From: a virus
DNA length: 64,000 nucleotides
Direction: 5' to 3' (one strand)
Virus record (IMG/VR): IMGVR_UViG_3300031576_000005
Coordinates: 95,143 to 159,142 of that record
Part shown: positions 1 through 19,447 of the stretch, in pieces
Layout of the letters: each line of letters begins with the position of its first letter
Position numbering within the stretch: position 1 is the first letter of the stretch
Notes under the pieces: generated by a model
Databases searched by the model: none
What the model was told of the DNA's origin: nothing
The model's input: the letters and a program-made list of their open reading frames with translations, nothing else
Position numbers and translations under genes: made by a program

Positions 1-74
1 TCTAAGACGGCAACCAAAGATTCTAAGATATCCTGTTCAATTAAATATCCAGAAATTGTTCTGATTAGGTTCAT
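1..74 (-). CDS. Unknown protein, N-terminal end only (runs off the left edge)
   Basis: An ATG at 74 opens a minus-strand reading frame that stays open to the window edge, giving about 24 residues that begin MNLIRTISGYLIEQD. Its ATG overlaps the TGA of the preceding HNH gene in an ATGA junction, the same coupling used by many gene pairs here. Too little is present to name a function. Confidence 0.5.
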   Translation of the reverse strand, partial: MNLIRTISGYLIEQDILESLVAVL

Positions 75-814: not shown

Positions 815-815
815 A

Positions 816-1739: not shown

Positions 1740-1781
1740 ATATAAATTTACACTATCATGACTTTAAATAAAAATCAAGAC

Positions 1782-2846: not shown

Positions 2847-2852
2847 ATTAAT

Positions 2853-3584: not shown

Positions 3585-4816
3585 GATATAAAATCAATAT
3601 TTGGCAATATTTTAATCCAAATCCCTTTATAGTCGGGATTATTTTTAATAATGCTATCTGCAAAATTCCATGCGGTTAATATGCAATAATCTGGATTTTT
3701 ATTTAAAAGCTCTTCTTTAGGCTTAATTTCTATATGCTTGCCAGGAACGAACTTCCTCCATTTTAAAAAGGAATCATCTATTACAAAATCTATTATCGAA
3801 TTATCAATATTAAAAAAATGAAGCAATGTTACAAGTTTTGCTGGTGCTCCATATGCCGATATAGATTTCCCTTGAAGTTTTAGATTTTTTAAAATTTCTT
3901 TTATTTTAACTTTATGATTATTGAGATTATTTATAAATAATTTATATGCCTCATCCCTATATAAACCCGCTTCTTCTTCCAATATAATACATTTTTCGAC
4001 GCTAGACCAATTCGTAAAACAATGGTGAGTGTGTTTGACGAACGCGCGAAAACTTCCTCCTTGATTTGAATTTCGTTCTACCCTGACAATTTCTAAATCA
4101 AATTGTCTAAAAAATCTTTTAAGTGGTTTGATGCTATGAAAAAATAAATGTTCATGATACACTTGGTCAAAATATAAACCATTAATGGTATCGAGTAAAT
4201 ATGCATTCTCCATAATAAACACACCATCTGGGGCTAACAATAATTTTATTCCTTTAACAATTGATTCCAAATTGGGAACATGTGCCATAACATTGTTGGC
4301 GGTGATAACCTTAGCCCGTCCGACTTCATTAACCATTTTTTTTGCCAGTTCTTCATTAAAGAATTCATTATATACCTTAATACTATCGCCCTTAGTCTGT
4401 TCAACTATGTTCGTAGCCGGTTCTATCCCTACCACATTCATACCCAACAACTTAAACGGTTTGAGCAATATATTGTCATTGCTGGCCACTTCTATGACCA
4501 AATCCCCCTGTTTTAATCCCCACTGCTTAACAACACTCTCGGCATAATCTGCAAAATGTTGTCGTAATTTAGCCGAAGTACTTGATGCATATAAATAGTT
4601 TTTAAATAGAATTTCGGGATTAACTGTATGTTTTAACCCGACGCTTCCGCATTCTTTACATCGATAAACTTGAAGTGGAGCTTCAAATTCTGGTTGGTTA
4701 AGGCTTTCTTTGGAAACGAGAGAATTAGCTAGGGGGGTGTTGCCAAAGTCTAGAACCGTGGTAATATTTTGACTTTTACAAAGCCTGCATTCGTGAATTT
4801 CTTGGCATTTATCCAT
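3575..4816 (-). CDS. SAM-dependent sugar C-methyltransferase-like protein
   Basis: A 413-aa protein with the three-part layout of deoxysugar C-methyltransferases (TylCIII/NovU relatives): an N-terminal zinc region with CRLC and CKEC, a central SAM-binding Rossmann fold (VIEVASNDNILL, about residue 108), and a C-terminal domain with YGAPAKLVTLL. Family members add a methyl to C3 of a keto-deoxysugar nucleotide; the precise sugar here is unknown. A paralogue lies at 12714-13955. An AGAAG sequence seven bases before the ATG is a weak ribosome site, uncommon in this window. Confidence 0.85.
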   Translation of the reverse strand: MDKCQEIHECRLCKSQNITTVLDFGNTPLANSLVSKESLNQPEFEAPLQVYRCKECGSVGLKHTVNPEILFKNYLYASSTSAKLRQHFADYAESVVKQWGLKQGDLVIEVASNDNILLKPFKLLGMNVVGIEPATNIVEQTKGDSIKVYNEFFNEELAKKMVNEVGRAKVITANNVMAHVPNLESIVKGIKLLLAPDGVFIMENAYLLDTINGLYFDQVYHEHLFFHSIKPLKRFFRQFDLEIVRVERNSNQGGSFRAFVKHTHHCFTNWSSVEKCIILEEEAGLYRDEAYKLFINNLNNHKVKIKEILKNLKLQGKSISAYGAPAKLVTLLHFFNIDNSIIDFVIDDSFLKWRKFVPGKHIEIKPKEELLNKNPDYCILTAWNFADSIIKNNPDYKGIWIKILPNIDFISCQ

Positions 4817-4841
4817 ATAAAACTTCTAAAATTTTTCAATG

Positions 4842-5237
4842 TCAAATCTTTGATAAATAAAAGCCTAACCTAACCAAATCATGCTCATATTCATTTTGGT
4901 CTCGGCAACCAGTGGAAAGACAGATAAATGATGAGTCAACCGGAAAATACATTTCATGTTCAATCATTGAGCCGGTCCAGAATGAATCTCCGGCTTTTAA
5001 TTTATATAACGTTGGCTTTTGGGTTGAACCAACTGGGCGCTCATAGTAATGAATCTCTCCCAGTGTGACATAGCAATTATGTCCGGATTTTAAATGGTAG
5101 TGTAGGGCGCGGTGGCTTCCAGCCATGCTTCGTATAAAAATTATGTCTCCATTAAAATTTCTATCTACATTCTCAATAACCCCGCGTTTATCTTCAAACA
5201 CAGGTAGTTTGTCTTGTATTACTTTTGTTATATCCAT
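4842..5237 (-). CDS. Cupin-fold sugar epimerase/isomerase-like protein
   Basis: A 131-aa single cupin. Visible cupin features are the HRALHYH and HNCYV segments near residues 42-56, the LKAGDSFW turn and the EHEMYF histidine strand. The arrangement resembles dTDP-4-keto-6-deoxyhexose 3,5-epimerase and FdtA/WxcM ketoisomerase relatives, which act between the dehydratase and transferase steps of deoxysugar synthesis. Context inside the glycan block supports that role. The exact reaction is inference. Confidence 0.7.
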   Translation of the reverse strand: MDITKVIQDKLPVFEDKRGVIENVDRNFNGDIIFIRSMAGSHRALHYHLKSGHNCYVTLGEIHYYERPVGSTQKPTLYKLKAGDSFWTGSMIEHEMYFPVDSSFICLSTGCRDQNEYEHDLVRLGFYLSKI

Positions 5238-5249
5238 AAATTTAATATT

Positions 5250-5558
5250 TTATTGATTTTCGTATTTTTCTTCAACTATATGATTGGCAAGCAAATAAGT
5301 GAGATAAAACAGATTTTCTAAATCTCTAAATTCATTTCCTTCAGTACGCATAGCTTTGATGTTATCTACAGCTTCATTCAAAACTTCTTCTTTGTGTTCG
5401 TCGCTATTTAAAAACTTGGATTCAGGTACTTCTATAAAGATTTTTCCATCTTTTCGATATACTTTAATATCTTTTGATAATGAGGTTGGTTCAGAGACAC
5501 GAGGCTCGTCATCACAGAAACCACCGCAGTAATCGCCACAGTAATAACATTGTTGCAT
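5250..5558 (-). CDS. Hypothetical protein with Cys-rich N terminus
   Basis: A 102-aa acidic protein that starts MQQCYYCGDYCGGFC, with a CxxC and further cysteines that could hold one metal. The rest predicts as helix and has no family signature I know. An AAGGA ribosome site stands seven bases before the ATG, one of the few clear Shine-Dalgarno motifs in the window. Confidence 0.6.
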   Translation of the reverse strand: MQQCYYCGDYCGGFCDDEPRVSEPTSLSKDIKVYRKDGKIFIEVPESKFLNSDEHKEEVLNEAVDNIKAMRTEGNEFRDLENLFYLTYLLANHIVEEKYENQ

Positions 5559-5577
5559 ATTTTGTCCTTATTTAATA

Positions 5578-5829
5578 TTATTTTGGTTTAGGTATTTCGT
5601 CTTCATAACACCAATAGTCAAATACATCCGTATTAGTCCATTCATGCCCTTCATAAGCCCCAAATATGTTTACCTCTAAGTCGGTTACTCCATAATCTTG
5701 GGTAACCATTCCAAATTCTAATACATCCTCTTTACTAGAATATAATAACAAAATACTAGATTCTTTCCGAATCTTATACTCGTCCCAAGATAAGATTGGT
5801 AACATTTCTGTAAATTTATGCCAATTCAT
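5578..5829 (-). CDS. Small hypothetical protein, possibly DUF551-like
   Basis: An 83-aa protein with W...FTEMLP at the start, a short strand-rich middle (ILLLYSS, EFGMVTQ) and a YWCYEDEIPKP end. This spacing resembles the small DUF551 phage family (start W..LP, end W.PLP.PP), but the match is loose. It overlaps the upstream gene by four bases (ATGA). Confidence 0.6.
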   Translation of the reverse strand: MNWHKFTEMLPILSWDEYKIRKESSILLLYSSKEDVLEFGMVTQDYGVTDLEVNIFGAYEGHEWTNTDVFDYWCYEDEIPKPK

Positions 5830-6140
5830 ATTTCCGAATCACTTTCTCCTAATTCAAAAACTAAATAAAATTCCTTGTTTTTGTAAGTCGCTACAAATCC
5901 TCCGCTCGAAGCAGAGAAAAATCCTCCGCTCAGAGTAGATTGACTTTTAGCGGTGTCTTTTAAAAGTCTATACGCCGTATTATATAAATCATCAACAGTT
6001 GGAATGCTAGTACAGTCTCCATCCGGATTCCCCGTTGAGTATTTCCACCCCACGGCTTCCATTGCTTTTTGTACTTTGTCAAAATCAAAGCGAGATAAAG
6101 TTAAAGCGATTTTTAATTCTTGTTCTTTTGAGAGTTTCAT
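5826..6140 (-). CDS. Hypothetical protein
   Basis: A 104-aa protein with a helical first half and a glycine/serine-rich stretch (residues 70-82, SGGFFSASSGGF) before a strand-rich tail. No family is recognised. ATGA-type four-base overlaps on both sides tie it translationally to the glycosyltransferase upstream and the small protein downstream. Confidence 0.6.
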   Translation of the reverse strand: MKLSKEQELKIALTLSRFDFDKVQKAMEAVGWKYSTGNPDGDCTSIPTVDDLYNTAYRLLKDTAKSQSTLSGGFFSASSGGFVATYKNKEFYLVFELGESDSEI

Positions 6141-7048
6141 ATATTTCTTGTAAAATTTTCAGTTTTCCATACTGGGCTTCCAACGAAAGTTTGTCCCTCA
6201 ACCATTCCTGGAACATTTCCATTCACCCCACCTATGCAGAGATGTTGTCCGATTGACGCATCACAAATATCTAGCCACGGAAAATTTTTAGTTAAATCTA
6301 AACTATTTTTCTTTGCCCATTCATACCAATACCATGTTAGGGCGCATGTCATAATAGCGTCGTTAGCCATTTTTTTATTGTTAATTTCATCTTTGGTAAA
6401 TGCAATCTTCATCCATTGCCAATATTCTGACACGACATCTCTTGTTTGGTCGTTTAAATCTTCTAAAATTTTGTTAAATCTATGGTAAGCCAAAAAACAC
6501 GAGCCACAAGAATTGCTTCCACCCTGCACTAATATTTTGCCTCGTTTTGTATCAATTTCAAATGGTTTATACATATATTCTCGGTTAATAATATCTTTAC
6601 GAAATTGTTGTATCATTAATTTTGGAAAGAAATTATCAGTTTTTTCTTTATTATAAAAATCTGGATGGGAGGTGAGTGGAATTGCCACAACATTCGGATT
6701 TGATTCGATAACAGCCATACAATCTTCCATGTATTCCCGTCTGAAAACGTAATCAGATTCTACCATGAATATAAATTCTGGATTCAAAACCCTCATTAAA
6801 TTATACGCAGACTCAAATTGGCGACCAATACCTAAATTACAACCATTTAATATCAAATGAATAGGCATCTCTATTGAGCTATTTTCTTTTGCAAATTTAA
6901 ACAAAGAAGATTGAATATTTAAATCCGAACAATCATCTAATATATATATTTCGTTTGGAAAAATTTTAGTATTAGATAAAGTTGTCCTTAGACAATCTGC
7001 AAGTACTTTTGGACGGTTATAAGTAAAATATATATATAATAATTTCAT
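6137..7048 (-). CDS. Glycosyltransferase, GT2/GT-A-like (tandem copy 1)
   Basis: A 303-aa GT-A fold transferase. It opens LLYIYFTYNRPKVL, has ILDDCSD (nucleotide-sugar binding) near residue 36, NLGIGRQFESAY around residue 70, and MVESDYVF near residue 95 in place of the metal-binding DxD. It would move a sugar from a nucleotide donor to a glycan acceptor. The neighbour at 7045-7917 is a clear duplicate: both end in G(V/I)NGN(V/I)PG..EGQTFVGSP. A (TA)-rich run falls in codons 3-7. Donor and acceptor are unknown. Confidence 0.85.
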   Translation of the reverse strand: MKLLYIYFTYNRPKVLADCLRTTLSNTKIFPNEIYILDDCSDLNIQSSLFKFAKENSSIEMPIHLILNGCNLGIGRQFESAYNLMRVLNPEFIFMVESDYVFRREYMEDCMAVIESNPNVVAIPLTSHPDFYNKEKTDNFFPKLMIQQFRKDIINREYMYKPFEIDTKRGKILVQGGSNSCGSCFLAYHRFNKILEDLNDQTRDVVSEYWQWMKIAFTKDEINNKKMANDAIMTCALTWYWYEWAKKNSLDLTKNFPWLDICDASIGQHLCIGGVNGNVPGMVEGQTFVGSPVWKTENFTRNI

Positions 7049-7917
7049 TGTGAGAACGAAGGCGAGCCAACAAAAGTTTGCCCTTCTTGAATACCAGGAA
7101 TATTACCATTAATTCCTAGGGCATTAATATGGTTAGAAACTGACGGAACAATATTTAGTAAAGGAAAATATTTGCTGGTATCCCATCCTTGCTCCTTTGC
7201 GTAAAGCGACCAATAATAACTTAATCCGTGTGATAATGGACCGTCTGCTAAAAGTTTTCTATTACCCCCTGGTTGTTTATTAGCCAAACGTTCCCACCAC
7301 GTTGTTTTCATTTCTGGATATTTTTTCATTAATTCCATTGTAAAACGCCATTTTAAATAAATTGTTCCACAAGAATTAGAGATTCCACTCAATTTTAGAG
7401 TTTTGTTTCCCAATGTACAATCGAATAGTTTAAACATATTGGTTCTATTGACTGGGTCAGAACCGTAATCTTCTTTTATAATATTTCTATACATTTTATC
7501 ATATCTTTCAGGCGTATAAAAATCTGGGTGGTCATATCCCGATATGCCAATTGATTTTTTCCCGATTTCACTTTCAAATACCTCTAAAATATCTTCTGCC
7601 CAATTTTTTCTAAATATGTAATCACTTTCAACAAAAAAAACATATTCTGGATTATATACTCGTGCTACAGACAATCCAAATTCAAAATTCGTGCCATATC
7701 CTATATTTTCATTAAATGAAAGCATATCAATCGGCATTTCTTTCGTAGAATTTTCCAAACAAAATTGCCATAACCCGACTTTTGTTGATTTTTCACTTGC
7801 ATCATCTAAAATCACAACTCTATGTGGTTTAACGTTTGTATTGGAGAATAATGTGGCCAAACACTCTTTTAGAATTATTGGACGATTATGAGTGTATATA
7901 ATATATAGAAGTTTCAT
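7045..7917 (-). CDS. Glycosyltransferase, GT2/GT-A-like (tandem copy 2)
   Basis: A 290-aa paralogue of the preceding-numbered gene, with LLYIIYTHNRPIIL, VILDDASEKST, NENIGYGTNFE and FVESDYIF in the same order and the same GINGNIPG..EGQTFVGSP ending. The two probably add consecutive or alternative sugars. It shares ATGA overlaps with both neighbours. It and copy 1 have diverged well beyond recent duplication, so both are likely retained by selection. Confidence 0.85.
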   Translation of the reverse strand: MKLLYIIYTHNRPIILKECLATLFSNTNVKPHRVVILDDASEKSTKVGLWQFCLENSTKEMPIDMLSFNENIGYGTNFEFGLSVARVYNPEYVFFVESDYIFRKNWAEDILEVFESEIGKKSIGISGYDHPDFYTPERYDKMYRNIIKEDYGSDPVNRTNMFKLFDCTLGNKTLKLSGISNSCGTIYLKWRFTMELMKKYPEMKTTWWERLANKQPGGNRKLLADGPLSHGLSYYWSLYAKEQGWDTSKYFPLLNIVPSVSNHINALGINGNIPGIQEGQTFVGSPSFSQ

Positions 7918-8114
7918 ATTTTAAATTTTGCTATAAAATCACTACAAATTCCTGAGATTTTAACTTTTGGTAATCCATAAATTTTAAAATGTTCATCTTT
8001 AGCTATAGAGTATTTAGAGCCTACTTCAGAAATAGCTTCGTTTAATGAAAAAAAATGAATTTCTTTAGTGCTTGCTAGAACCCCGTCTAAATCAAAAATT
8101 ATCAATTTAATCAT
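7914..8114 (-). CDS. Truncated HAD-family phosphatase fragment
   Basis: Only 66 aa. The first residues (IKLIIFDLDGVLAST) are HAD motif I with the nucleophile Asp and acid/base Asp (DLDG), followed by cap-domain-like helices ending near YGLPKVKISG. Full HAD phosphatases of the phosphoglucomutase/gph type are 200 aa or more, so motifs II-IV are missing. The end is an ATGA overlap with the downstream glycosyltransferase, so the truncation is not a simple frameshift. It is either a decayed sugar-phosphatase or a short non-catalytic protein. Confidence 0.65.
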   Translation of the reverse strand: MIKLIIFDLDGVLASTKEIHFFSLNEAISEVGSKYSIAKDEHFKIYGLPKVKISGICSDFIAKFKI

Positions 8115-8136
8115 ACCAATCTTTAAGAGTATAAAT

Positions 8137-9120
8137 TTATTCTCTATAAATATCGTTTAATGCCGAAAGTACGCTTTCCACCATTTTATCTTCAGAAAAT
8201 TGTAAAGCTTCATTATAACAGTTAATCTGCTTTATGTCATCAAGTTTATTCCAGGAATTACAAAAATCCATATCGCTAAAAATAAAGAAGCCATTAACGC
8301 CATCTTTAATAAAATTTTTATATCCACCCATTTTAGTTGCGAAGATTGTACAACCATAACTAGCCGCTTCTTTAGCGGCCAAAGTTACCGAAATATTATA
8401 ATCCTGAAACTGAGTATTTACCTTTGCTCGCTTCATGAAATCTTCTTTTGTTTTCTGGTCGATAACGCCCAAATAATAAGTAATTTTATTATTAATAAAG
8501 TTTAATAGAGGATAATCTTTATCAATTGGTCCCGCAAAAACCGTCGTAATTTCATGTTTTAATGCATAATAAGCAACCTCTATAGAGTGATATGCTCTAC
8601 AATGTCTGGAACATTGAAAAATCATGTCTTCCTTTGGATATTCCTGAAATACTGGAAATTTCGGGCCAATAACAATATTATAAACTTTATGATTGCTAGT
8701 TAGTTGTGGTTCTTGGTTTTTAATATCAAATAATAATACATGTTTGTGATATGGATGAACAATTTCGCGCCAACCAACCGGCCAAACGACTTGTTTTTGG
8801 CTACGGCATCCTTGTAAATTAAGATATGTGGCCGCGAAATGATGAAAGAAAATATCGTATTCGTCGGAGTTTGGAATATAATTTTTAAGGGGTGCTCCGT
8901 TTTTAATAGCCTGCCTTTCACGTTCGCATAAAAAATGGCCTTGTTTTCTTTTTTCTATAGGAATACCATCAAAACATTTTTCATCGCCATAAATATGAAA
9001 ATCATCTAATTGATTTAATAAAGCTGCGGCAATTATTCGGCCTCCCCCATATTTTTTGGGAGCAACATGATAGTCCTCTATACAATCCGATTCATTAACA
9101 TCTATATATGCTATTTTCAT
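8137..9120 (-). CDS. Glycosyltransferase, GT4/GT-B-like
   Basis: A 327-aa GT-B type transferase. The N terminus carries a GGGR loop (residues 25-28) typical of donor-site entry, and the C-terminal half has VFAGPI, YYLGVID and AAKEAASYGC...KDGVNGFF, which correspond to the GT4 E-x7-E and gVNG(f/l)l signatures. Donor sugar is unknown. The last strands are intact and the length is near the lower end for GT4 enzymes. Confidence 0.75.
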   Translation of the reverse strand: MKIAYIDVNESDCIEDYHVAPKKYGGGRIIAAALLNQLDDFHIYGDEKCFDGIPIEKRKQGHFLCERERQAIKNGAPLKNYIPNSDEYDIFFHHFAATYLNLQGCRSQKQVVWPVGWREIVHPYHKHVLLFDIKNQEPQLTSNHKVYNIVIGPKFPVFQEYPKEDMIFQCSRHCRAYHSIEVAYYALKHEITTVFAGPIDKDYPLLNFINNKITYYLGVIDQKTKEDFMKRAKVNTQFQDYNISVTLAAKEAASYGCTIFATKMGGYKNFIKDGVNGFFIFSDMDFCNSWNKLDDIKQINCYNEALQFSEDKMVESVLSALNDIYRE

Positions 9121-9770
9121 TTGGGTTTCGCAATATAATCGGGATGATTTTCTTTAACGAGGCTCATTGTATACCCCATATCTTCAAATAGTTTACAAAA
9201 ATCTTCAACGCTTTTGGGGCTAAAATTTTCGTATTCAAATATAACTATAGGTCGACATCGCATAATTGTTTCTCTCGCCCCCTCTATAACATAGTAATCT
9301 GTTCCTTGGGCGTCTATTTTTATAAGATTTACATCTAAATTTAAACTATCCAAGGCCAACATTTTAATTTGTGTGGGTTGTGTTGACTCCCCACATCTAG
9401 TATCCCCAAGGTTGCTTCCCGTTGGGGTATTAATAGTAGCATATCCATTGTATTTCCAACAGGTATAATTATATGAAGTAACATTATCACATTCGTTTAT
9501 ACAAAAATTACCGCACATTTGATTAAAACGCCTAATTTGTGGTTCAAAAGCATGGATATGTTTTACTTTTTTAGCTAAATGAATTATCTGTTCCCCAATA
9601 TAAGAACCAACATCAATAATTACTGATTGATTATTTATATATTTTTCAATTTCTTGTATAACTTCTTCGTCCCATAATTTGTTCTCAAATTTAACGTAAT
9701 TCTCAATAAGGTCTCCGCCATCAGATAGCAATAATTTGCCATAGGGCTTTTTATAAATTGAATATTCCAT
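9117..9770 (-). CDS. FkbM-family methyltransferase
   Basis: A 217-aa class I methyltransferase. VIDVGSYIGE (about residues 51-60) is SAM motif I, HAFEPQ is the acidic motif II, and LIKIDAQGTDYYVIEGA near 155 is the FkbM signature. Family members O-methylate sugars or polyketides, so a glycan methyl ether is the likely product. It is one of three FkbM genes between 9.1 and 12.7 kb and overlaps the upstream gene's end by no more than a few bases. Confidence 0.85.
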   Translation of the reverse strand: MEYSIYKKPYGKLLLSDGGDLIENYVKFENKLWDEEVIQEIEKYINNQSVIIDVGSYIGEQIIHLAKKVKHIHAFEPQIRRFNQMCGNFCINECDNVTSYNYTCWKYNGYATINTPTGSNLGDTRCGESTQPTQIKMLALDSLNLDVNLIKIDAQGTDYYVIEGARETIMRCRPIVIFEYENFSPKSVEDFCKLFEDMGYTMSLVKENHPDYIAKPK

Positions 9771-9771
9771 A

Positions 9772-10404
9772 TTATTTGACTCTTTTAGCTAAGTCTATAA
9801 TAATATCATTTGGATTCATTTCTTTATAATAAAGATTTTCTATATCTTTGATTTTAAATTCATTATAATATTTGGGATTAATAAACCAATCTTCTAAATA
9901 TTTTTTGCCAGCGAATGAAAGTCCAACATTTTCAACAATCATTTTATATGGTTTATCTTTCATAAAAGAACTTAATTTTTCTTTTTGAAATTGTCCATGC
10001 GGGTTATATAAATCGTGCTCTATTGTTAATATTTTAAAATCATATTCTTCAAATGGAAATTTTGATAAAACATTAACGCACGGGTCTTCAATGTATCCGT
10101 TTGGGTCTATATCAATTGTAAGATAATCGATAGCTTTTGGAACTTTAAAATGGTCAAATAATTTTTTGTAATCCAGGTGAAATGCGTCGGCCTGAATAAC
10201 TGTAGATTTTGGCCTGAATTTAGCCGCTTCTTCACAATATCTAGGAAGATATTCTATGAGCAAACCAGTCCAACCGAGTTCCTCTAACCAAGCTGTATTT
10301 GATGCACATGGCTCGCCTTCTCCATTGCCAGCGCCAATATCAACATAATATCCTGAATTTCCCAATAGTAATTGAACAAACAAATCTTGTTGTGATAAAC
10401 TCAT
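9772..10404 (-). CDS. FkbM-like methyltransferase
   Basis: A 210-aa protein with YYVDIGAGNGEGEPCASN (SAM motif I, residues 19-36), LLIEYLPRYCE (motif II region) and YLTIDIDPNGYIED around 113. These place it in the FkbM/class I methyltransferase group, though it is shorter and more divergent than the copies on either side. A glycan O-methyltransferase is the likely role. Confidence 0.75.
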   Translation of the reverse strand: MSLSQQDLFVQLLLGNSGYYVDIGAGNGEGEPCASNTAWLEELGWTGLLIEYLPRYCEEAAKFRPKSTVIQADAFHLDYKKLFDHFKVPKAIDYLTIDIDPNGYIEDPCVNVLSKFPFEEYDFKILTIEHDLYNPHGQFQKEKLSSFMKDKPYKMIVENVGLSFAGKKYLEDWFINPKYYNEFKIKDIENLYYKEMNPNDIIIDLAKRVK

Positions 10405-10424
10405 ATAGTTATATATTTAATTTT

Positions 10425-11054
10425 TTATTTTTCGTAAATTTTTCCATTTATTACCATAATATCAACCGGCGTATTTTTAAAGAAATTATTTGCGTCTTCT
10501 TGAGTTTCTAGTATTGGCTCACCATTTCCATTTAAACTCGTGTTTATTATCATAGGTATATTGGTTTGGCTATAAAAAGATTCAATAAGTTTATAATAAT
10601 TAGGATTTGTTTCCTTGGTAACAGTCTGCATTCTAGCAGAACCATCAATATGTGTGATTGAGGGAATTTCTTTTGGATTTTTCACTTGAGCCGTAAATAA
10701 CATAAAAGGACTTTTTGTAGGAAAATCAAACCATTCTTGGGTTTTTTCTTCTAAAACTGATGGTGCAAACGGCCTGAACCATTCCCTCTTTTTAATTAAA
10801 AAATTTAATAACTCTCTATTATGGAAATTACGTGGGTCTGCTAAAATAGAGCGATGTCCAAGCGCTCTTGGTCCGTGTTCCGATTTTCCATCAAACCATC
10901 CAATAATTTTTCCTTTCGATATTTGTTTTGCTAAAAAATCATATTCAAGCTCTCTCTCTCTCTTCGCCTCCACCCAGATAGCAAATCTCATTATCTGTAT
11001 ATTTGTAACGTGGTTCATTAAACAAATTATGAGTAACGTAAAGTGCCGAACCAA
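10425..11054 (-). CDS. Carbamoyltransferase, C-terminal part (frame after the AG repeat)
   Basis: Open frame holding the C-terminal domain of a NodU/CmcH-type O-carbamoyltransferase. The homologous part starts just after the AG tract at about 10949 and includes GKSEHGPRALGHRSILADPR, the C-domain signature, then FRPFAPSVL and NTSLNGNGEPI. The first ~35 codons (to about 10950) overlap the N-terminal ORF and are only an out-of-frame shadow. No separate start is convincing, so this half is probably made only when the repeat length restores the frame or the ribosome slips. Together the halves make roughly 530 residues, near normal for the family. Confidence 0.8.
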   Translation of the reverse strand: MVRHFTLLIICLMNHVTNIQIMRFAIWVEAKRERELEYDFLAKQISKGKIIGWFDGKSEHGPRALGHRSILADPRNFHNRELLNFLIKKREWFRPFAPSVLEEKTQEWFDFPTKSPFMLFTAQVKNPKEIPSITHIDGSARMQTVTKETNPNYYKLIESFYSQTNIPMIINTSLNGNGEPILETQEDANNFFKNTPVDIMVINGKIYEK

Positions 11055-12021
11055 CCGCTATTCCATCATCACCACAACCAGGAAATAAGTGAACATTTTT
11101 AAATTTAGATTCTTTCAAAATTCTGGTATTAACATTGCAATTGAGCATTGAACCACCACTTAAACATATATTTTTATTTCCTTGATTATCAATATTTTGT
11201 ATACATTTTAAAATCGCTTCCTCGAATATATATTGAAGAGATGCGGCGATATTCATCGCTGTTTTACTATCTTTAAAAGAAGAATCAAAAGCTTTATCTG
11301 TCCTAGAAATTTCTTTCCAAAATTTACAAAATTCCTCCTCAAATACTAACTCTTTGTTAAAAAAGCATCTCTCAACATATGAATTAATATTTTTAATTAT
11401 AAAATCTAACGGCATCCCATAAGATGCTAGACCCATCGTTGAACCAGCTTTATGTAAAGGGTCTCCTAGCCCCAAATTATATGTAAATTTTGTATAAAGA
11501 TTCCCAACCATTAAACCCGGGCAATTAATAGCCAGTATCTTATTATTTTCTCCATAGGCAACTAAAGAATTCCACGCCATCATTCCGGTACTAGAATCCA
11601 AACTGAAACAAAAAGAAGATTGAAATGGACTAGTATAAAAAGATGACGCACAATGCGCCATATGGTGTGGAATTGCTATTGCCGGAATTCTTTTGCCTCT
11701 TATTTCAAAAAATATATTATCTTTTATTATTTGATTACCCACCACACCCTGCGTAAATATTCCGCATTCTTGATTATTTATAAAAAGTTTACATGTTCCG
11801 TTCGCATATTCAGGAAAATAATCGGTAAATGAAATAACGTCAACTTCATTTAATGAAATATTAGATAGTTTTAATCCGTAATCTAATACCTCATTTGTTA
11901 TTCCGTAAGATTTTTTAATTCTAGTAACTCTTTCCGATGAAATTGCCGAAATTAATTTGTTACCTTTTACTACAGCCATTCCCCCGTCGTGTCCTAAATG
12001 AAGCCCTAATATATTAGCCAT
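10945..12021 (-). CDS. Carbamoyltransferase, N-terminal part (ends at AG repeat)
   Basis: N-terminal 358 aa of a NodU/CmcH/TobZ-type enzyme that transfers carbamoyl from carbamoyl phosphate via carbamoyl-adenylate onto a hydroxyl of a sugar. NILGLHLGHDGG opens the ASKHA-like fold, IPHHMAHCASSFY (His119, 120, 123) is the metal/active-site region, and LSGGSMLNCNVN near 295 is the nucleotide loop. The frame dies in ...EERERA-stop because the (AG)7 tract at 10950-10963 is out of register with the C-terminal part. Eight or five AG units would join them. Confidence 0.85.
   Translation of the reverse strand: MANILGLHLGHDGGMAVVKGNKLISAISSERVTRIKKSYGITNEVLDYGLKLSNISLNEVDVISFTDYFPEYANGTCKLFINNQECGIFTQGVVGNQIIKDNIFFEIRGKRIPAIAIPHHMAHCASSFYTSPFQSSFCFSLDSSTGMMAWNSLVAYGENNKILAINCPGLMVGNLYTKFTYNLGLGDPLHKAGSTMGLASYGMPLDFIIKNINSYVERCFFNKELVFEEEFCKFWKEISRTDKAFDSSFKDSKTAMNIAASLQYIFEEAILKCIQNIDNQGNKNICLSGGSMLNCNVNTRILKESKFKNVHLFPGCGDDGIAVGSALYVTHNLFNEPRYKYTDNEICYLGGGEERERA
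10950..10963 (-). repeat. (AG)7 dinucleotide tract inside the carbamoyltransferase gene
   Basis: On the coding strand seven AG units lie between the N-terminal frame (codons GAA GAG AGA GAG AGA GCT TGA) and the C-terminal frame (GAG CTT GAA). One extra unit or two fewer would restore a single open reading frame. It is the longest dinucleotide tract I saw outside plain TA runs. Confidence 0.9.
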
Positions 12022-12024
12022 ATT

Positions 12025-12717
12025 TTATTTTTTTATAGGTTGAAGTAATAAGTCATGTACGTGTTTAGTATCAAAATCTTCTCTACAAACTTTTTCCATA
12101 GTATCTGGATTTAATGGATTATAGCCTATAAAATCAATTGCGTCAAACAAATTATCATTTTTACTTTTATGAAACCACCACTCGGTATAGATTAGTGGTT
12201 TATACATGTCAAGAATTGGTTTAATATTTTTTAATACAACCGGCTCCCAACCTTCTATATCCATTTTTATAAATTTAAGATTGTTCAAATCATGTTTTAA
12301 CAAAAATTGAGCGGTATTAATACAAGGTAATTCCACTAACTGGCAATGCCCACGTTCTTCTTCGATTGAAAATCCATCCATAATACCTCCGTTAGACCTC
12401 CCGCCACCAAAAGTTTTATATTCATCCCTATCCGAACAACCAGTATTATAAGCTGTACAATTTTTTATTTGATTTAATTCTAAATTTTTAATCAAAAAAC
12501 TATATACCTCTGGGTTAATTTCGAAACTCATTACCCCCCCCACAGTCGCCCCCGCTAATATTGACATAGCAATACTAGAAGTTCCTAAATTAGCCCCAAT
12601 ATCCAAACATAAACAGCCCTTTTCTATAAAAGGGGGCAACACCTTCATAAACATATCAAATTCGGCGGGTAAACTCACACCTCTTGGAACATCGATTTGT
12701 GGATATTCAAAAATCAT
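12025..12717 (-). CDS. FkbM-family methyltransferase with a G8 tract
   Basis: A 230-aa methyltransferase with CLDIGANLGTSS (SAM motif I, residues 37-48), SFEINPEVYSF (motif II) and FIKMDIEGWEPVVL near residue 150, the FkbM signature. It is expected to O-methylate a sugar of the glycan. Codons 59-62 (GTG GGG GGG GTA) form a run of eight G, unusual in DNA this AT-rich, and a length change would frameshift the protein after about 60 residues. The frame is intact here, so the gene reads ON. It ends four bases before the carbamoyltransferase. Confidence 0.85.
   Translation of the reverse strand: MIFEYPQIDVPRGVSLPAEFDMFMKVLPPFIEKGCLCLDIGANLGTSSIAMSILAGATVGGVMSFEINPEVYSFLIKNLELNQIKNCTAYNTGCSDRDEYKTFGGGRSNGGIMDGFSIEEERGHCQLVELPCINTAQFLLKHDLNNLKFIKMDIEGWEPVVLKNIKPILDMYKPLIYTEWWFHKSKNDNLFDAIDFIGYNPLNPDTMEKVCREDFDTKHVHDLLLQPIKK
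12534..12541 (-). repeat. G8 homopolymer in the FkbM methyltransferase gene
   Basis: Eight consecutive C on the plus strand (G on the coding strand). Other G/C runs noticed in the window reach only six. It lies in the loop between SAM motif I and the acidic SFE strand. Confidence 0.9.
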
Positions 12718-13955
12718 ACTATTTCTATTTTTGGTAAAGGGAAAATAAATTTTCCACCATTTTTTCTAAATTCAGTTTCTCTTTCCAGAATTTCTGCCTT
12801 AAAATGATAGGGGCCAATAAAATAATAATCTGGTTTCATGTTGCGGCTTTCTTCCTCAGAAATCAACTTAATTCCACTAATTGTAGTAGCTCCAACTTTT
12901 TCTGGGCTGCGTTCTGCTGCGTATTGAATTAAATCTGTTCCAATTTCGCAATATCCAAGAATAGTGTTTAATTTTGTAGACGAACCATAAATATGAATGG
13001 TTTTACCTTCTAACCTAATCTGTTTTAGCAATTTATTCAATTCGGTTTTATGGGCGAGAACTCGACTCCTAAAAATCTCATATGTTGATTCATCATCAAG
13101 AGCGGCATTGAATTCTCCTAAGCGAATTTCCGATAGTCTTTTTCTAGAATTTTCACTATCATAATTGTGACAGTCATCATGTGTTATATAGCACATAATA
13201 CTACCACCATTAGTATCGGTTAATTCTGCGTCAAAAACTTTTAATCCACAGGCTTTCATCATAATTTCAATTGGAGCTAAGTGATAATGAATTATATGCT
13301 CGTTTACGCAAGAATCATAAGATAGATTTTTTAGCATAGAAGGCCAATATGCAACTTCAAAAATCCAAATACCTTTTTTATGTAAAATTTTTTTAATTTC
13401 TTGTGCAAATTCACAAGGATTTTCAACATCATAATAACACGCAATTGAAGTAATAATATTAATGTCTTTTTCTTCGAGGAGTTTGGTCGGGAATAAATCA
13501 TTTATAATTTTAATATCTTTATCTTTCTGACGGGAAGTAATATCACATGGGTCAATCCCAATTTTTTTAAAATTTTCACTATAATTTCTCAAAAGCGTTC
13601 CGTCGTTCATAGCAATATCTAGTACTGTTCCATCATATAAATTGGTAATCCCAGTGGTTTTCCAAACAATTCTTTGCAAATGTTCTCTCATCGTGTTACT
13701 AATACCAGACTGATACCAGTAATTTGTATATAAAATCCTTGGTGGAATTGTATGGCGGGTTTGAACCAAACCACAAGCATTCTCCCATTTTGAAGTATCG
13801 CAACGAACTATTTGGTTTGGGGTTTTGCGAGTGGGGGGATTTGGCACTCCTTCTTTAATAAAAGAACCCTGAAAATATTGATACCCCAAATCCAATACAT
13901 CGGTCAAATGAGGATTACCACAAATTCGGCAGGTTTGACGATACTTAATATTCAT
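12714..13955 (-). CDS. SAM-dependent sugar C-methyltransferase-like protein (paralogue)
   Basis: A 413-aa relative of the gene at 3575-4816 with the same three parts: CRICG zinc region at residues 10-14, SAM fold with VLDIAMNDGTLL near 110, and a C-terminal domain with IYGSSTKLNTILGY and a PDYYFIGPYHF strand. The second zinc pair is altered (RCDTSKWENACG), so metal binding may differ. Probably methylates a keto-sugar nucleotide. It overlaps the FkbM gene by four bases. Confidence 0.8.
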   Translation of the reverse strand: MNIKYRQTCRICGNPHLTDVLDLGYQYFQGSFIKEGVPNPPTRKTPNQIVRCDTSKWENACGLVQTRHTIPPRILYTNYWYQSGISNTMREHLQRIVWKTTGITNLYDGTVLDIAMNDGTLLRNYSENFKKIGIDPCDITSRQKDKDIKIINDLFPTKLLEEKDINIITSIACYYDVENPCEFAQEIKKILHKKGIWIFEVAYWPSMLKNLSYDSCVNEHIIHYHLAPIEIMMKACGLKVFDAELTDTNGGSIMCYITHDDCHNYDSENSRKRLSEIRLGEFNAALDDESTYEIFRSRVLAHKTELNKLLKQIRLEGKTIHIYGSSTKLNTILGYCEIGTDLIQYAAERSPEKVGATTISGIKLISEEESRNMKPDYYFIGPYHFKAEILERETEFRKNGGKFIFPLPKIEIV

Positions 13956-14143
13956 TATTTTAAAAGATGCTCGAAACTCATATCGTCTGGCAAATTTTTT
14001 GGTTCAGAAAATTCAAGTTTGACAATATGTTTTTCACCTTCATCTCTTGGTTTTGCTAAAACCGGGCCTGTAAATGCCCCGGTAGAACCATCAGATAATG
14101 TTATATAAACTATCTGATATTGTTGTTTATTTTTCTTTTTCAT
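13955..14143 (-). CDS. Small hypothetical protein
   Basis: A 62-aa basic-then-acidic protein with two strand-like segments (YQIVYITLSDG, HIVKLEFSEP). No family recognised. Its TAA overlaps the next ATG by one base (TAATG), supporting a real, coupled gene. Confidence 0.55.
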   Translation of the reverse strand: MKKKNKQQYQIVYITLSDGSTGAFTGPVLAKPRDEGEKHIVKLEFSEPKNLPDDMSFEHLLK

Positions 14144-14270
14144 TTTTCCTCTTCTTTAATATCATATCATCAAACTTGACGACTTTCAAGTTCTTTTTGT
14201 ATTTTGTCTTAATTTTATATCCACAAGCCTCAAATAATGTCTTAACCATCCAATATTGATTATTTGTCAT
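14127..14270 (-). CDS. Very small basic protein (47 aa)
   Basis: ATG at 14270, one base after the TAA of the upstream gene, running 47 codons (starts MTNNQYWMVKTLFEACGY, ends in a Lys-rich tail). It fills an otherwise empty gap exactly and overlaps the following start by 17 bases. The opening resembles a short amphipathic helix; function unknown. Confidence 0.5.
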   Translation of the reverse strand: MTNNQYWMVKTLFEACGYKIKTKYKKNLKVVKFDDMILKKRKNEKEK

Positions 14271-14271
14271 A

Positions 14272-14598
14272 TTATTCTACCACAACTTTAGCCGCATATT
14301 CTTGTTCAAACATTTCAAGCCAAAGTTCTGGTTTTAATCCTTTTTGAGAACCATGAACCCAATAGGGAGAAATAACTCTAACGCTAAAGTCTAAATCAAT
14401 CACCCCTTCGTATTTTACCATTTTATCCTTGCTCCAAGCTGTCAATTTATCTCCACTTTTTAAGACATATAAACCCTCATAACCATGCTGCTTTGGGCAG
14501 GTCTTTGATTTTGTTTCATATATACACCAAATAATACCTTCGGTACCAGTTTCAAAAAATGCTTCTAAAAATCCCTTAATATTTTTTTGTTTTTTCAT
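14272..14598 (-). CDS. Hypothetical protein
   Basis: A 108-aa protein, probably beta-rich, with GTEGIIWCIYE, YEGLYVLKSGDKLTAW and PYWVHGSQ. The layout looks like a small phage SH3- or OB-like domain, but I cannot place it. Overlaps the upstream glycosyltransferase by four bases. Confidence 0.6.
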   Translation of the reverse strand: MKKQKNIKGFLEAFFETGTEGIIWCIYETKSKTCPKQHGYEGLYVLKSGDKLTAWSKDKMVKYEGVIDLDFSVRVISPYWVHGSQKGLKPELWLEMFEQEYAAKVVVE

Positions 14599-15383
14599 GA
14601 ATCTTTATATACCATAGGTATCATTTGTCCCATCATTTGATAGTAATGTTCGCTGAAGTATAATTTCTTTGTTTCTTCGTCCCATTTATAAGAGCAAGCT
14701 CCATAATGTTTATTTTGAAAGTCACATTTTCTCTTTAGATATCCATCTATATTCGAAACCCAACTATAATGTTTTGGCGAACTAATCTCAAATGGAATTG
14801 TCTTTCCAAGACATTCTTTATATTTGAGGCCATTTTTAAAAGTTAATTCATCATCAAAATGAAATCCCAAAATACCTTCGTTTTTATCATTTCTCCACCA
14901 CCTTGGAACAATAAAAGTTTTTACATAAGAATTAAAATCAAAGACATAATTCTTAAAATGTGTATTAAACCAACTTATATCTGGATTTTCCGAAATAAAA
15001 TTTAAAGACCGTTCTATTTCTTCTAGCTCCCATACTTCGTCCATATTGAGCATAAATAATAAGTCAATATTTTTAGAGAATAGAAAATCCAAATTGGAAT
15101 TCCAAAACTGATATTCAAATTTGTTGTGGTCAAAAACATTCAGATAATCTATAACTCCTTCTTTATGAAGCTTTTGGAATTTTTCAATCGTACCATCGGT
15201 TGAGTAAAGAGGGAATCCAATTGCCGCCGTTTCATTAAAACAACCATGGGCTGTTCCAATATGAACTTCCTCAATAACATTGCTCAACGCCCCTTGTTTA
15301 ACTTTTCGCCACGGGGCAAAAACTTTATCTAAATGTTCAATACATTGATAGCCTAGCGAGGTAATTCCAATTTTATATTTCAT
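14595..15383 (-). CDS. Glycosyltransferase-like protein (GT-A fold)
   Basis: A 262-aa protein opening YKIGITSLGYQCIEHL, with LLFMLNMDEVWE near residue 110, where NMDE is the likely metal-binding DxD equivalent, and a W-rich second half (PRWWRND, HYSWVSNIDGYLKRK). The order fits GT2-like transferases that act on surface sugars. The family match is weaker than for the tandem pair. It is coupled to the epimerase gene upstream by a four-base overlap. Confidence 0.65.
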   Translation of the reverse strand: MKYKIGITSLGYQCIEHLDKVFAPWRKVKQGALSNVIEEVHIGTAHGCFNETAAIGFPLYSTDGTIEKFQKLHKEGVIDYLNVFDHNKFEYQFWNSNLDFLFSKNIDLLFMLNMDEVWELEEIERSLNFISENPDISWFNTHFKNYVFDFNSYVKTFIVPRWWRNDKNEGILGFHFDDELTFKNGLKYKECLGKTIPFEISSPKHYSWVSNIDGYLKRKCDFQNKHYGACSYKWDEETKKLYFSEHYYQMMGQMIPMVYKDS

Positions 15384-16285
15384 AGGTAAGAAATTGGTAC
15401 ATCGCGTTTTCCAACGTGTATTTCATGAAAGTACAACATTATTCCTTCTACAATAGTTTCTATATTGTCACAAAATTCAAAATTGAAATTAGTAGAAAAT
15501 TTATTGGAATTAATAGTAAAATCATAATTACTCCGTCCTTCTCCTACGGTTAATTTTACGTCTAGTATTTGACTTACCTTTTCCCCAATATCTTTAACAG
15601 TTGCATTGAATGATGCAAGATTATAGATGCCTCGTAATTTTCTATCATTGGTTTCAATAATTCTAGTTACAGCACTACATAAATCTAAGATTCCGAGGAT
15701 TGGCCTAGAAATTTCTGGCGAACTAACAAAAATCTCTTTTTGTCTAAGTCCATTGGTGGCCATTGAGTTTATCATAATATCGGAGCGGAAATTTGGGGCT
15801 TGGCCATTTACAGTCCCAAATCTCAATCCATAAAAGTGTAAACCACAAAGCTTGGCGTGGTTATCAATTTCTGATTTACTTAAATCGTAAGAGTTCTCTG
15901 GTATAAAGATATCGCATCTTTCGGTAGCTTGGTTAACCCTGACATTTCCATAAACGCTAGAACTACTAGCATAAATGAAGATTGTGTCTTTATTCAATTT
16001 GGGCAAAAGATTTACGAAATTCCTTACGTTGTTGTTGAAACAAGAAACATTGTTTCCTTCTGACATTTGAACCGAGGAATGCCCTGCTAACAAAATGATT
16101 GCTTGATATTTATTATAAAACTCTGGCGTCAGATAAGCAAAGTCTAGGTTAATATTATTGGGGTTAGTATAATTACCAAACCATTCTAAATCGACGGTAT
16201 CTACTTGATAATCCGGGCGGTTATTGAGGAATTGATATAAAGCCCCGCCAATATAGCCCGTTCCACCTAGTATTAAAATTTTCAT
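15380..16285 (-). CDS. NAD-dependent sugar epimerase/dehydratase (SDR)
   Basis: A 301-aa extended SDR. ILGGTGYIGGAL (residues 4-15) is the NAD-binding motif, YASSSSVYGN near 105 gives the catalytic Ser, and YDLSK near 133 the YxxxK pair. LRFGTVNGQAP follows as in nucleotide-sugar epimerases. Epimerase, dehydratase or reductase activity on a sugar nucleotide is likely; which one is not clear. Confidence 0.85.
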   Translation of the reverse strand: MKILILGGTGYIGGALYQFLNNRPDYQVDTVDLEWFGNYTNPNNINLDFAYLTPEFYNKYQAIILLAGHSSVQMSEGNNVSCFNNNVRNFVNLLPKLNKDTIFIYASSSSVYGNVRVNQATERCDIFIPENSYDLSKSEIDNHAKLCGLHFYGLRFGTVNGQAPNFRSDIMINSMATNGLRQKEIFVSSPEISRPILGILDLCSAVTRIIETNDRKLRGIYNLASFNATVKDIGEKVSQILDVKLTVGEGRSNYDFTINSNKFSTNFNFEFCDNIETIVEGIMLYFHEIHVGKRDVPISYL

Positions 16286-16287
16286 TT

Positions 16288-16923
16288 TTATTGTAGAGAA
16301 ACTAAGGGAATATGGGGCGTCATAATAGGTTCAAAAGCTCTATAAAGCATGTTAAAAAATACAGGAAAATCTACGTCTTTCTTGCTTGGAAAAGCGTTTG
16401 TAAATCCTTCTTGTACTAACCTGAAAGCTAATGTATTCTTCATGCCCTGGCGTAATAAATCCAAATTAAGAGTAAAGGGTGGCAATAATATAAATGCAGA
16501 CCTTAATATTTTTCCTTGAAATTCAGTAGTTCTTGAAAAATCATATACTTCGTTGCTAGATTTAGAATTGCCAATAGCCAAACATGGTTTTGTGGCCAAA
16601 TAATCTAAATTAAATTCAAAATCTACAAATTCGTTTCCTTCTTGGTAGCAAATTGCATCAACATTTTCATTATTCATAGCCGCAGTAAGTGATTCTAGCA
16701 AAACTTTGCCAGATGGAACAGCATTATTATATTCAAAAAGCTGATAATTATGACGCCCAATCCTACTACTGTCCATTATATTTCTAATTATTTTAGTCAT
16801 TCCTTTATCGAGACCATTATTAATTAAATAAATTAAGCCCCCCTCTTCTAGCTTGATATATTTGGGAGAATCGATATCCCCATTTTTTAAATTATAAATG
16901 TATAGAGTTTTCATTTTATTCAT
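16288..16923 (-). CDS. Hypothetical protein in the glycan cluster
   Basis: A 211-aa protein (ATG at 16923; a second ATG at 16914 would drop three residues). It contains MKTLYIYNLKNGD, a DAICYQEGNEFVDF stretch and a hydrophobic proline-rich segment (FILLPPFTLNLDLL) near 145. No family recognised. Its position two bases upstream of the epimerase suggests a shared transcript and perhaps a role in sugar handling. Confidence 0.55.
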   Translation of the reverse strand: MNKMKTLYIYNLKNGDIDSPKYIKLEEGGLIYLINNGLDKGMTKIIRNIMDSSRIGRHNYQLFEYNNAVPSGKVLLESLTAAMNNENVDAICYQEGNEFVDFEFNLDYLATKPCLAIGNSKSSNEVYDFSRTTEFQGKILRSAFILLPPFTLNLDLLRQGMKNTLAFRLVQEGFTNAFPSKKDVDFPVFFNMLYRAFEPIMTPHIPLVSLQ

Positions 16924-17077
16924 ATTTAATATAACCTAGTAAATGTTTAGAGGTTAGTAGACAAAGTAGGGCTAATACAATTTTCCAGCCGCCAAGCCAA
17001 ATGATTAACCCATAAGCACAGACAACAAAGATTAATGAGAGGACTGCTAATAGTTGGTTTTTAGTTTCTTTATTCAT
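16916..17077 (-). CDS. Small membrane protein (53 aa)
   Basis: ATG at 17077, ATGA-overlapped with the TGA of the upstream gene, and TAA overlapping the next start. Two hydrophobic segments (about residues 9-28 and 32-42, around a GGWK turn) predict a two-pass inner-membrane hairpin. No homology recognised; overlap at both ends argues that it is real. Confidence 0.6.
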   Translation of the reverse strand: MNKETKNQLLAVLSLIFVVCAYGLIIWLGGWKIVLALLCLLTSKHLLGYIKYE

Positions 17078-17445
17078 ATTTCCTTCATATCGTTTCCATA
17101 TTCTAAATATATCATTTTAAGAAAAATCTTAAATATTCCTTCTGGATTACCATTTCTTATAGCCGTCATGCCATTAATATTTATTATATATTTATTTTGT
17201 TGTATGGCCGCAAGATGAGTTTTAATTTCTATAATTTTATTATCTTGCGTATTTTTAAGAATGATACTCCCACATTCTTTATAAATTTCTATGTAATTTG
17301 GTAGTTTGTAGATTGCTTGAAATGAGTTAAATAATTCTAATATTGGCCTAAATTCTATTTTGCAAGCCAATGAAATAGCGTCTTTAGCCTTTTGTTCGCT
17401 CTCTATCTCAATTCTAACATTCGCAACCATTTCTTGAATGTTCAC
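17074..17445 (-). CDS. Hypothetical protein
   Basis: A 123-aa, probably helix-strand protein (IQEMVANVRIEIESEQKAKDAI helix, then short strands). Overlaps the neighbours by four bases on both sides. No known domain. Confidence 0.6.
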   Translation of the reverse strand: MNIQEMVANVRIEIESEQKAKDAISLACKIEFRPILELFNSFQAIYKLPNYIEIYKECGSIILKNTQDNKIIEIKTHLAAIQQNKYIININGMTAIRNGNPEGIFKIFLKMIYLEYGNDMKEI

Positions 17446-17708
17446 AAATCCTTCGTAAAATTGAATTTAGTTTGGGCTTTTTCTAGTTCTTCTTTGTTTT
17501 TTGTTTTTAAATATAAAGCAATGAATTGCTGATTTGCTAAAATCCATTGTTCGACCATATAGTCAAAATTTGTTTGGTCGTCTTCAATATGTTTGCCAGT
17601 TTCTGAATCTATAGTATAATTTGGACTAAATTCTTTATAATATTGATTAGGCGTCAATGATGCTCGATTCCAACACCTTATGAATAATCCTGAAGGTTTC
17701 TTACTCAT
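17442..17708 (-). CDS. Hypothetical protein
   Basis: An 88-aa protein with several aromatic residues early (FIRCWNRASL, YYKEFSPNYTI) and a helical C-terminal half. It starts after a 31-base gap behind the GT9-like gene. Function unknown. Confidence 0.6.
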   Translation of the reverse strand: MSKKPSGLFIRCWNRASLTPNQYYKEFSPNYTIDSETGKHIEDDQTNFDYMVEQWILANQQFIALYLKTKNKEELEKAQTKFNFTKDL

Positions 17709-17739
17709 TAGTAAAATATAGCAGTTTCGTTAAGAATAA

Positions 17740-18651
17740 TCAAGTAAAATCTTTCTTGATTAGCAGATTTCTCATATCGGCCTGATAGGGGATTTGTACG
17801 TAGGCCGGAATAGCAGATGTGAGAGGTTCGGTCAAATTGAGCATTACTCTGTTGAAAATCGACTCAAGAGGCGATTCTAGGGGCATGTCGTCCTCACATG
17901 TCTCGTGGTAACGAATTATATGGTATGGCGTCTGGTAGCGTTGCTGGAGCACTATACGCGGGATTTGGAGATGAAATGAAATATGTGCGTATGCGGAATC
18001 TATTCCGATGAAATAATCACACTTATTTAATATATTTATCGTCTCCTCTAATGGGCGGTCTACTAAATCTATATAATTACCTTGGCAGAAAAAGGGTAGC
18101 GGACTTCCTTTCCATTGTGAGGTTCTTGCAATAATTATATTATAACCTACTTTATTAAATAAATTTACTAATGCTTGCAGTTTTGGCAACGGATAATTCT
18201 TTTCCATTGTTATCGACGTAACATGTATAAAAATATTCTTAGTATTTGGCTTGATTGCCTCATGTTTGAAGTTTTCATTTGCTTTTAATGAGACTTTCGT
18301 TTGCATGAAGGCTTTATACGTTCGCACATAATCTTTCCATGGAAAGGCGTGCCATGCTAGGGTAAGACTGTCTGGCCAGCATGAATAAACCGCATCATAT
18401 TCATTAATTAAATTATCTAGGAACGTCTTTGGCAAATTAAGGGGGTTTTCTGGGTCTTTATACTCATTCGTTCTTGACGGACACTGAAAAACATTGAAGT
18501 AGGTGCATTTCTTTATGAAATCCAATATTTCTATATGGGAATTTACATATATGTCTGCCTTTCGATTATGTTCGGCTTCAAATAATGTGGCCGCCGAAAG
18601 CGCCTGGCAAACATCCCCAATACCGCCACATGTTATAATTGCACAGCTCAT
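17740..18651 (-). CDS. Glycosyltransferase, GT9 heptosyltransferase-like
   Basis: A 303-aa GT-B protein. CGGIGDVCQAL (residues 8-18) matches the N-terminal glycine/Asp loop of GT9 heptosyltransferases, and DYFIGIDSAYAHISFHL near 212 matches the conserved C-terminal D/S-x2-H motif. It could add heptose or a related sugar to a lipopolysaccharide-type core. The DNA is visibly richer in G+C than its neighbours, which suggests later acquisition. Its ATGA overlaps the reconstructed end of the broken HNH gene. Confidence 0.75.
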   Translation of the reverse strand: MSCAIITCGGIGDVCQALSAATLFEAEHNRKADIYVNSHIEILDFIKKCTYFNVFQCPSRTNEYKDPENPLNLPKTFLDNLINEYDAVYSCWPDSLTLAWHAFPWKDYVRTYKAFMQTKVSLKANENFKHEAIKPNTKNIFIHVTSITMEKNYPLPKLQALVNLFNKVGYNIIIARTSQWKGSPLPFFCQGNYIDLVDRPLEETINILNKCDYFIGIDSAYAHISFHLQIPRIVLQQRYQTPYHIIRYHETCEDDMPLESPLESIFNRVMLNLTEPLTSAIPAYVQIPYQADMRNLLIKKDFT

Positions 18652-19446: not shown

Positions 19447-19447
19447 A

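Follow-up and report, generated by a model that had tools for sequence, protein, structure and literature searches.

The present analysis concerns a run of seven AG dinucleotides, (AG)7, in a gene for an O-carbamoyltransferase within a glycan cluster of IMG/VR record IMGVR_UViG_3300031576_000005 (159,142 bases), of which the whole stretch analyzed here, hereafter the window, comprises 64,000 nucleotides (record positions 95,143-159,142). The record is that of a large, uncultured tailed phage, with terminase, portal and tape-measure matches. The patterns detected make it likely that (AG)7 is a slipped-strand contingency switch in this gene. The phage carries two genes interrupted by AG runs, probably for sugar decoration, and can probably flip both on and off by copying slips. 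Repeat switches of this kind are well known in bacteria and little described in phages. Support for a switch comes from the anatomy of the gene, the excess of AG tracts over chance, the presence of two such loci, the position of the tract in a linker, and a difference in unit number between two assemblies of another phage.

The tract is read directly at window positions 10950-10963 on the minus strand, where it spans 14 bases (the plus strand is (CT)7). The N half of the gene (window 10945-12021, minus strand, 358 amino acids) matches Carbam_trans_N (PF02543, E 8.1e-47) and the Nol-like carbamoyltransferases of PHROG 1601 (E 4e-41), and the C half, in another frame (window 10425-11054, minus strand), matches Carbam_trans_C over positions 1-170 of 170 (PF16861, E 1.1e-65) and again PHROG 1601 (E 4.5e-74). 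On the 528 positions of the PHROG 1601 profile the N half occupies 2-331 and the C half 339-528, so that the two are consecutive pieces of one protein. Neither half holds further stops, and both cover nearly the entire family profiles. A TGA immediately 3′ of the tract ends the N-half open reading frame (ORF), while the remainder of the gene continues in the other frame. The sequence-only reading of this DNA had two halves of one carbamoyltransferase meeting at a 14-base AG repeat whose present length terminates translation just after it, and both points are borne out by the direct reading, by the Pfam N and C domains on either side and by the 358-residue product. Its further proposal that eight or five units would join the halves is also right, since by frame arithmetic the ATG and the second stop share one open frame at 5, 8, 11 or 14 units. 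The products would be 362 residues at six units, 358 at seven and 532 at eight, and the gain of one AG unit, from seven to eight, turns the truncated frame into that of a full-length carbamoyltransferase. Because the assembled seven units yield 358 residues and the full frame needs eight, the assembled state is, as predicted from the reading frames, OFF.

As placed by Pfam, PHROGs and PDB sequence matches and by alignment with the nearest viral homolog, (AG)7 sits in the predicted inter-domain linker. By sequence, the solved relatives of both halves are NovN, GdmN and TobZ; in structure 7xb6 the N-half match extends up to residue 391 and the C-half match begins at 429, which puts the junction between the two domains. 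The gene resembles the NodU/CmcH/TobZ O-carbamoyltransferases, with NovN, GdmN and TobZ nearest among solved proteins, in that Carbam_trans_N and Carbam_trans_C are both present, a feature shared with the Nol-like carbamoyltransferases of cyanophages and pelagiphages in PHROG 1601. It differs from all of these in that the AG run splits it, so that at seven units the domains lie in different frames and not in the single chain of NodU/CmcH/TobZ enzymes. The C-terminal domain of TobZ produces carbamoyl-adenylate. In the mechanism that we propose, AG units would be gained or lost in replication, shifting the reading frame. With seven units, translation would stop just after the tract and give a 358-residue protein lacking the C-terminal domain (OFF), whereas eight units (or 5, 11 or 14) would allow the full carbamoyltransferase to be made (ON), and extra Glu-Arg pairs would be tolerable since the tract is in the inter-domain linker. 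Slippage at the locus would switch between this truncated form and a full-length enzyme that we take to be active, and the modified sugar may be displayed on the virion or on the surface of the infected host.

All 159,142 bases of the record, divided into six pieces, were searched for perfect repeats of 1-8-base units. Two dinucleotide runs of at least 12 bases were found, both of them AG (14 and 18 bases) and each at a frame break, and the third-longest dinucleotide run has 11 bases (AT). Under a first-order Markov model the number of AG/CT runs expected per record is 0.0007 at 14 bases or more and 2.5e-6 at 18 bases or more, and AG/CT runs in 20 simulated records reached 11 bases at most; the AG tracts are far beyond chance. 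With 7 and 9 units, both also exceed the dinucleotide cut-off of six or more units applied to Campylobacter phase variation with PhasomeIt, as given in an excerpt of PMC6321876.

The longer tract, (AG)9, lies outside the window at record positions 14372-14389 (plus strand, 18 bases) and splits an FkbM-like methyltransferase gene. There, a 122-residue ORF passes through the tract and the remainder follows in the next frame; a single frame results at 4, 7, 10 or 13 units, with products of 120 residues at eight units, 122 at nine and 211 at ten, and the assembled nine-unit state is by the same frame logic predicted to be OFF. When its halves were joined by X, the second gene matched TIGR01444 (fkbM_fam) over residues 3-139, spanning the junction (E 1.2e-7, 32.3 bits), compared with 25.2 bits for the N half alone and no match for the C half. 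No match to this gene was obtained in the phage collection, IMG/VR or the PDB sequences. The (AG)9 tract would render the methyltransferase switchable in the same manner, and a population could then contain as many as four combined states of carbamoylation and methylation. An alternative explanation could be that the unit number was misread in sequencing or assembly and that the gene is in reality intact and invariant. The sequence is indeed a metagenomic assembly, but the tracts, at 14 and 18 bases, are short compared with typical reads, and an error would not generate the tract itself, which here occurs at two loci; we regard this as the least probable of the explanations considered.

AG runs in comparable positions were found in other phages. 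Scanning IMG/VR for (AG)≥9 gave at least 120 loci holding at least 123 tracts, and a tract was counted as lying between open halves when, on either strand, it was preceded by 70 or more open codons counted from a start and followed by 50 or more. Tracts lay between open halves at 29 of at least 120 (AG)≥9 loci, as against 13 of at least 120 (AC)≥9 loci examined. At every one of the 29 AG loci one half was scanned with Pfam, and at six of them the second half as well. Seven matched DNA_methylase (L055, L057, L068, L081, L100, L103 and L106, of which L057 and L103 are one virus), seven PAPS_reduct (L032, L037, L042, L099, L109, L122 and L125), one Mom (L017) and one Laminin_G_3 (L067). The other 13 had no match, and several of these are GC-rich, where chance yields long open frames. 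A role of the PAPS-reductase-like genes in modifying the DNA of these phages is a guess. Judged by longest open frames and not by two-sided homology, 6 of the 15 methylase, PAPS and Mom loci are joined and 9 are split; L032 and L042 share the tract site at 81% DNA identity. There was no carbamoyltransferase or FkbM family match among the 29 AG loci, so the present phage adds glycan enzymes to the list. The 13 AC loci matched DNA_methylase twice (L367, L384), Prim-Pol once and DUF1376 once (just under the cut-off), with nine lacking a match, and the AC runs in the C5-cytosine methyltransferases of L367 and L384 indicate that the habit extends beyond AG.

The most direct comparison is between L057 (IMGVR_UViG_3300022661_000184) and L103 (IMGVR_UViG_3300024272_000819), which align over 5.8 kb with two AG units as the sole difference. 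In L057 (positions 4145-4174) 15 units leave a C5-cytosine methyltransferase gene split, whereas in L103 (minus strand) 17 units leave it joined, although a run of 30 bases may have stuttered in PCR or assembly and so produced the difference. These contigs are like the present gene in that an AG run lies within a phage gene and its unit number sets whether the gene is joined or split; they are unlike it in coming from another phage, in encoding another enzyme class, and in that the difference is seen between two assemblies. Two further pairs gave 9 and 10 units (L062 and L064, 93.9% identical) and 10 units each (L051 and L123, 99.9% identical). The claim of a likely phase-variable glycan gene in a phage is thus supported by an anatomy far beyond chance, a second locus, the same architecture elsewhere, and split and joined states in L057 and L103.

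It could also be that some full-length enzyme is produced at seven units by recoding, through +1 ribosomal frameshifting or RNA-polymerase slippage on the AG run. To be joined, both genes of the present phage require an identical change of frame (+2 or -1 bases modulo 3), which a common event could explain and which for the ribosome amounts to a shift of +1 (or -2), and in both genes AGA codons lie at most two codons from the stop. Against this, a shared phase at two OFF loci has an even chance of being coincidental, and the survey tracts vary in length with both joined and split alleles occurring, as DNA slippage predicts; recoding is accordingly judged very unlikely. Suppression of the stop was also considered. 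ARAGORN called a 71-base tRNA with a TCA anticodon at record positions 375-445 on the minus strand, either an opal suppressor or a false call. Read-through of the TGA keeps the wrong frame, so that opal suppression is unable to join the carbamoyltransferase halves and was rejected.

Homologs of the carbamoyltransferase were compared at the same site in a viral set, the best 80 of at least 598 relatives, and a bacterial set, the best 80 of 578. In the viral set both halves were in one ORF, N before C, in 65 of 80; 13 had no N-half match and 2 had the N half only in another ORF (L243, L250). In the bacterial set 72 of 80 were open for at least 300 codons upstream in frame, and the other eight comprised some contig ends and some repeat-free stops. 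The nearest viral homolog among the best 80, L218 (64.7% identity in the C half and 43.4% in the N half), has its 470 codons in a single unbroken ORF. At the junction its ICYTGRDYPSQTPDYNHIARQIADGKIIGWF aligns with ICYLGGGEERER / LEYDFLAKQISKGKIIGWF of the present phage in two frames or, with an alternative extent, its ICYTGRDYPSQTPDYNHIARQ aligns with ICYLGGGEERER / LEYDFLAKQ. Because L218 is unbroken through the junction, the frame break is confined to about ten codons containing the tract, and the N frame retains linker homology as far as the tract. From these alignments, the tract reads as a gain in this phage's lineage. A pattern scan of IMG/VR for a carbamoyltransferase motif preceded at the appropriate spacing by an AG run gave 0 stretches, and the sole stretch with an AG run before an FkbM motif (L012) was rejected as a chance match, by eye outside any FkbM gene. 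With the N half as query, and likewise with the terminase, no near relative was found in IMG/VR, from which very near records were possibly omitted in the search. Terminase matches in the phage collection numbered 36 records, and the 15 listed were at 21-28% identity.

Several observations weigh against a switch. The unit number of (AG)7 is known from a single assembled sequence of one phage, and some tracts within the cut-offs used in PMC6321876 may, according to the excerpt, mutate below 1e-5 and be too stable to switch. Dinucleotide runs longer than 8 bases in the linker were present in 0 of 80 viral homologs (2 of 80 reach 8), for which 260 bases around the start of the C-half match were checked, and in 0 of 80 bacterial homologs (6 of 80 reach 8), and thus in 0 of the 160 homologs examined. 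The sequence-only reading had proposed comparing related phages at this site and had counted relatives with no repeat and a different joining sequence as evidence against switching; as to the missing repeat, this is literally what the viral set shows, but because even the nearest homolog has no more than 65% C-half identity, the tract-less relatives show only a gain in the lineage. Three pairs of same-strand ORFs in the record overlap by at least 80 bases with no repeat (63814-66098, 85471-86122 and 120988-121747) and are possible frame breaks or recoding, so that the record may contain frame breaks of other origin or errors of assembly. For the second gene, the TIGR01444 score of 32.3 bits is below the curated cut-off of 37.7, and Pfam and PHROGs scans gave no match; membership of the FkbM methyltransferase family is consequently likely but not certain. 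Among the matches listed in the open-licence PMC literature there was no report of (AG)7 slippage in a phage.

A further point on the same side is that the two domains are on separate adjacent or overlapping ORFs with no repeat in L243, L250, second copies of L227 and L296 and, by eye, L244, so that in this family a split does not have to mean an OFF or dead gene. It follows that the halves might be translated separately and cooperate as a two-chain enzyme, the tract deciding only between one chain and two. An ATG in the C-half frame does occur about 30 bases ahead of the tract, with no evident ribosome-binding site by eye. That lack, together with the 65 of 80 viral homologs having both halves in one ORF and the linker homology kept by the N frame up to the tract, makes a two-chain enzyme highly improbable. 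The plain alternative is loss of function, in which a chance expansion of the repeat broke a gene that is now decaying. The single sequence, the absence of the tract from the homologs examined and the fact that both tracts are presently OFF are what would be expected of decay, but the halves are free of other stops with near-complete profile matches and the same rare type of tract sits at the break in two genes, and we consider loss of function unlikely.

Switching by repeats in a phage is already known in kind. An excerpt of the review PMC11868660 credits Sorensen et al. 2021 (Cell Rep 35:109214) with demonstrating that phages show phase variation, and the title of that study names poly-G tracts in Campylobacter phages. 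The earlier view that such a tract is unusual in a phage must therefore be softened, since hypermutable poly-G Campylobacter phages are on record in that excerpt. The systems are alike in that simple-sequence-repeat switching is encoded by the phage genome; as far as the excerpt describes them, they differ in that those tracts are poly-G and involve a receptor-binding protein with a plaque phenotype, while here the repeat is AG, the genes are for glycan-modifying enzymes, and the case is known from sequence alone. None of the matches listed from the open-licence PMC literature dealt with AG-repeat or dinucleotide switches in glycan or methyltransferase genes of phages. Dinucleotide phase-variable genes of Campylobacter, in the excerpt of PMC6321876, share the intragenic dinucleotide run, the frame-switch logic and a role in surface structures. 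The present case is unlike bacterial dinucleotide genes in being in a phage genome, with the tract mid-gene in an inter-domain linker, a placement that differs from that in the bacterial cases. One bacterial example is sabA of H. pylori, a phase-variable gene with CT repeats.

The surrounding glycan cluster extends over window positions 816-20665 on the minus strand, as recognized in Pfam scans. It contains a Gfo/Idh/MocA oxidoreductase, two epimerases, two C-methyltransferases, a DegT aminotransferase and FkbM methyltransferases, along with glycosyltransferases (two GT2, a weak GT1 match and a GT9 match). All of the immediate neighbors are on the minus strand. The next gene upstream of the carbamoyltransferase encodes an FkbM-family methyltransferase (window 12025-12717; PF05050, E 6.7e-9; TIGR01444, E 2.8e-20), beyond which is a C-methyltransferase (Methyltransf_13/14, window 12714-13955; PF08484, E 1.4e-37). 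Directly downstream is a weakly FkbM-like protein (window 9772-10404; PF05050, E 0.0051, under the curated cut-off, with no NCBIfam match), followed by another FkbM-family methyltransferase (window 9117-9770; PF05050, E 3.9e-16; TIGR01444, E 1e-22). HNH-like ORFs, recognized by eye, are interspersed in the cluster. Many similar ones occur at window 71-826 and 18784-19470 and in further copies along the record, scattered among other genes; their starts are variants of 'MIICLNFLNTY...KSLVRCDDCG'.

Bacterial phase variation is textbook knowledge, both in surface sugars and in restriction systems, and is often interpreted there as anti-phage defence. We put the chances as evenly balanced that phages recurrently employ contingency loci built on AG dinucleotides, a strategy in which AG runs in genes that govern the appearance of the phage to its host would make each burst a mixture of modified and unmodified particles and so hedge against restriction and receptor change. 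The same even weight is given to this strategy covering the surface-glycan enzymes described here and, in other diverse uncultured phages, C5-cytosine methyltransferases, PAPS-reductase-like proteins and Mom. If phages do use hypermutable repeats of this kind on their own glycan and DNA-modification genes, annotation that labels such phage genes as broken would be wrong, and in the arms race the phages would have a stochastic switch to match that of the bacteria.
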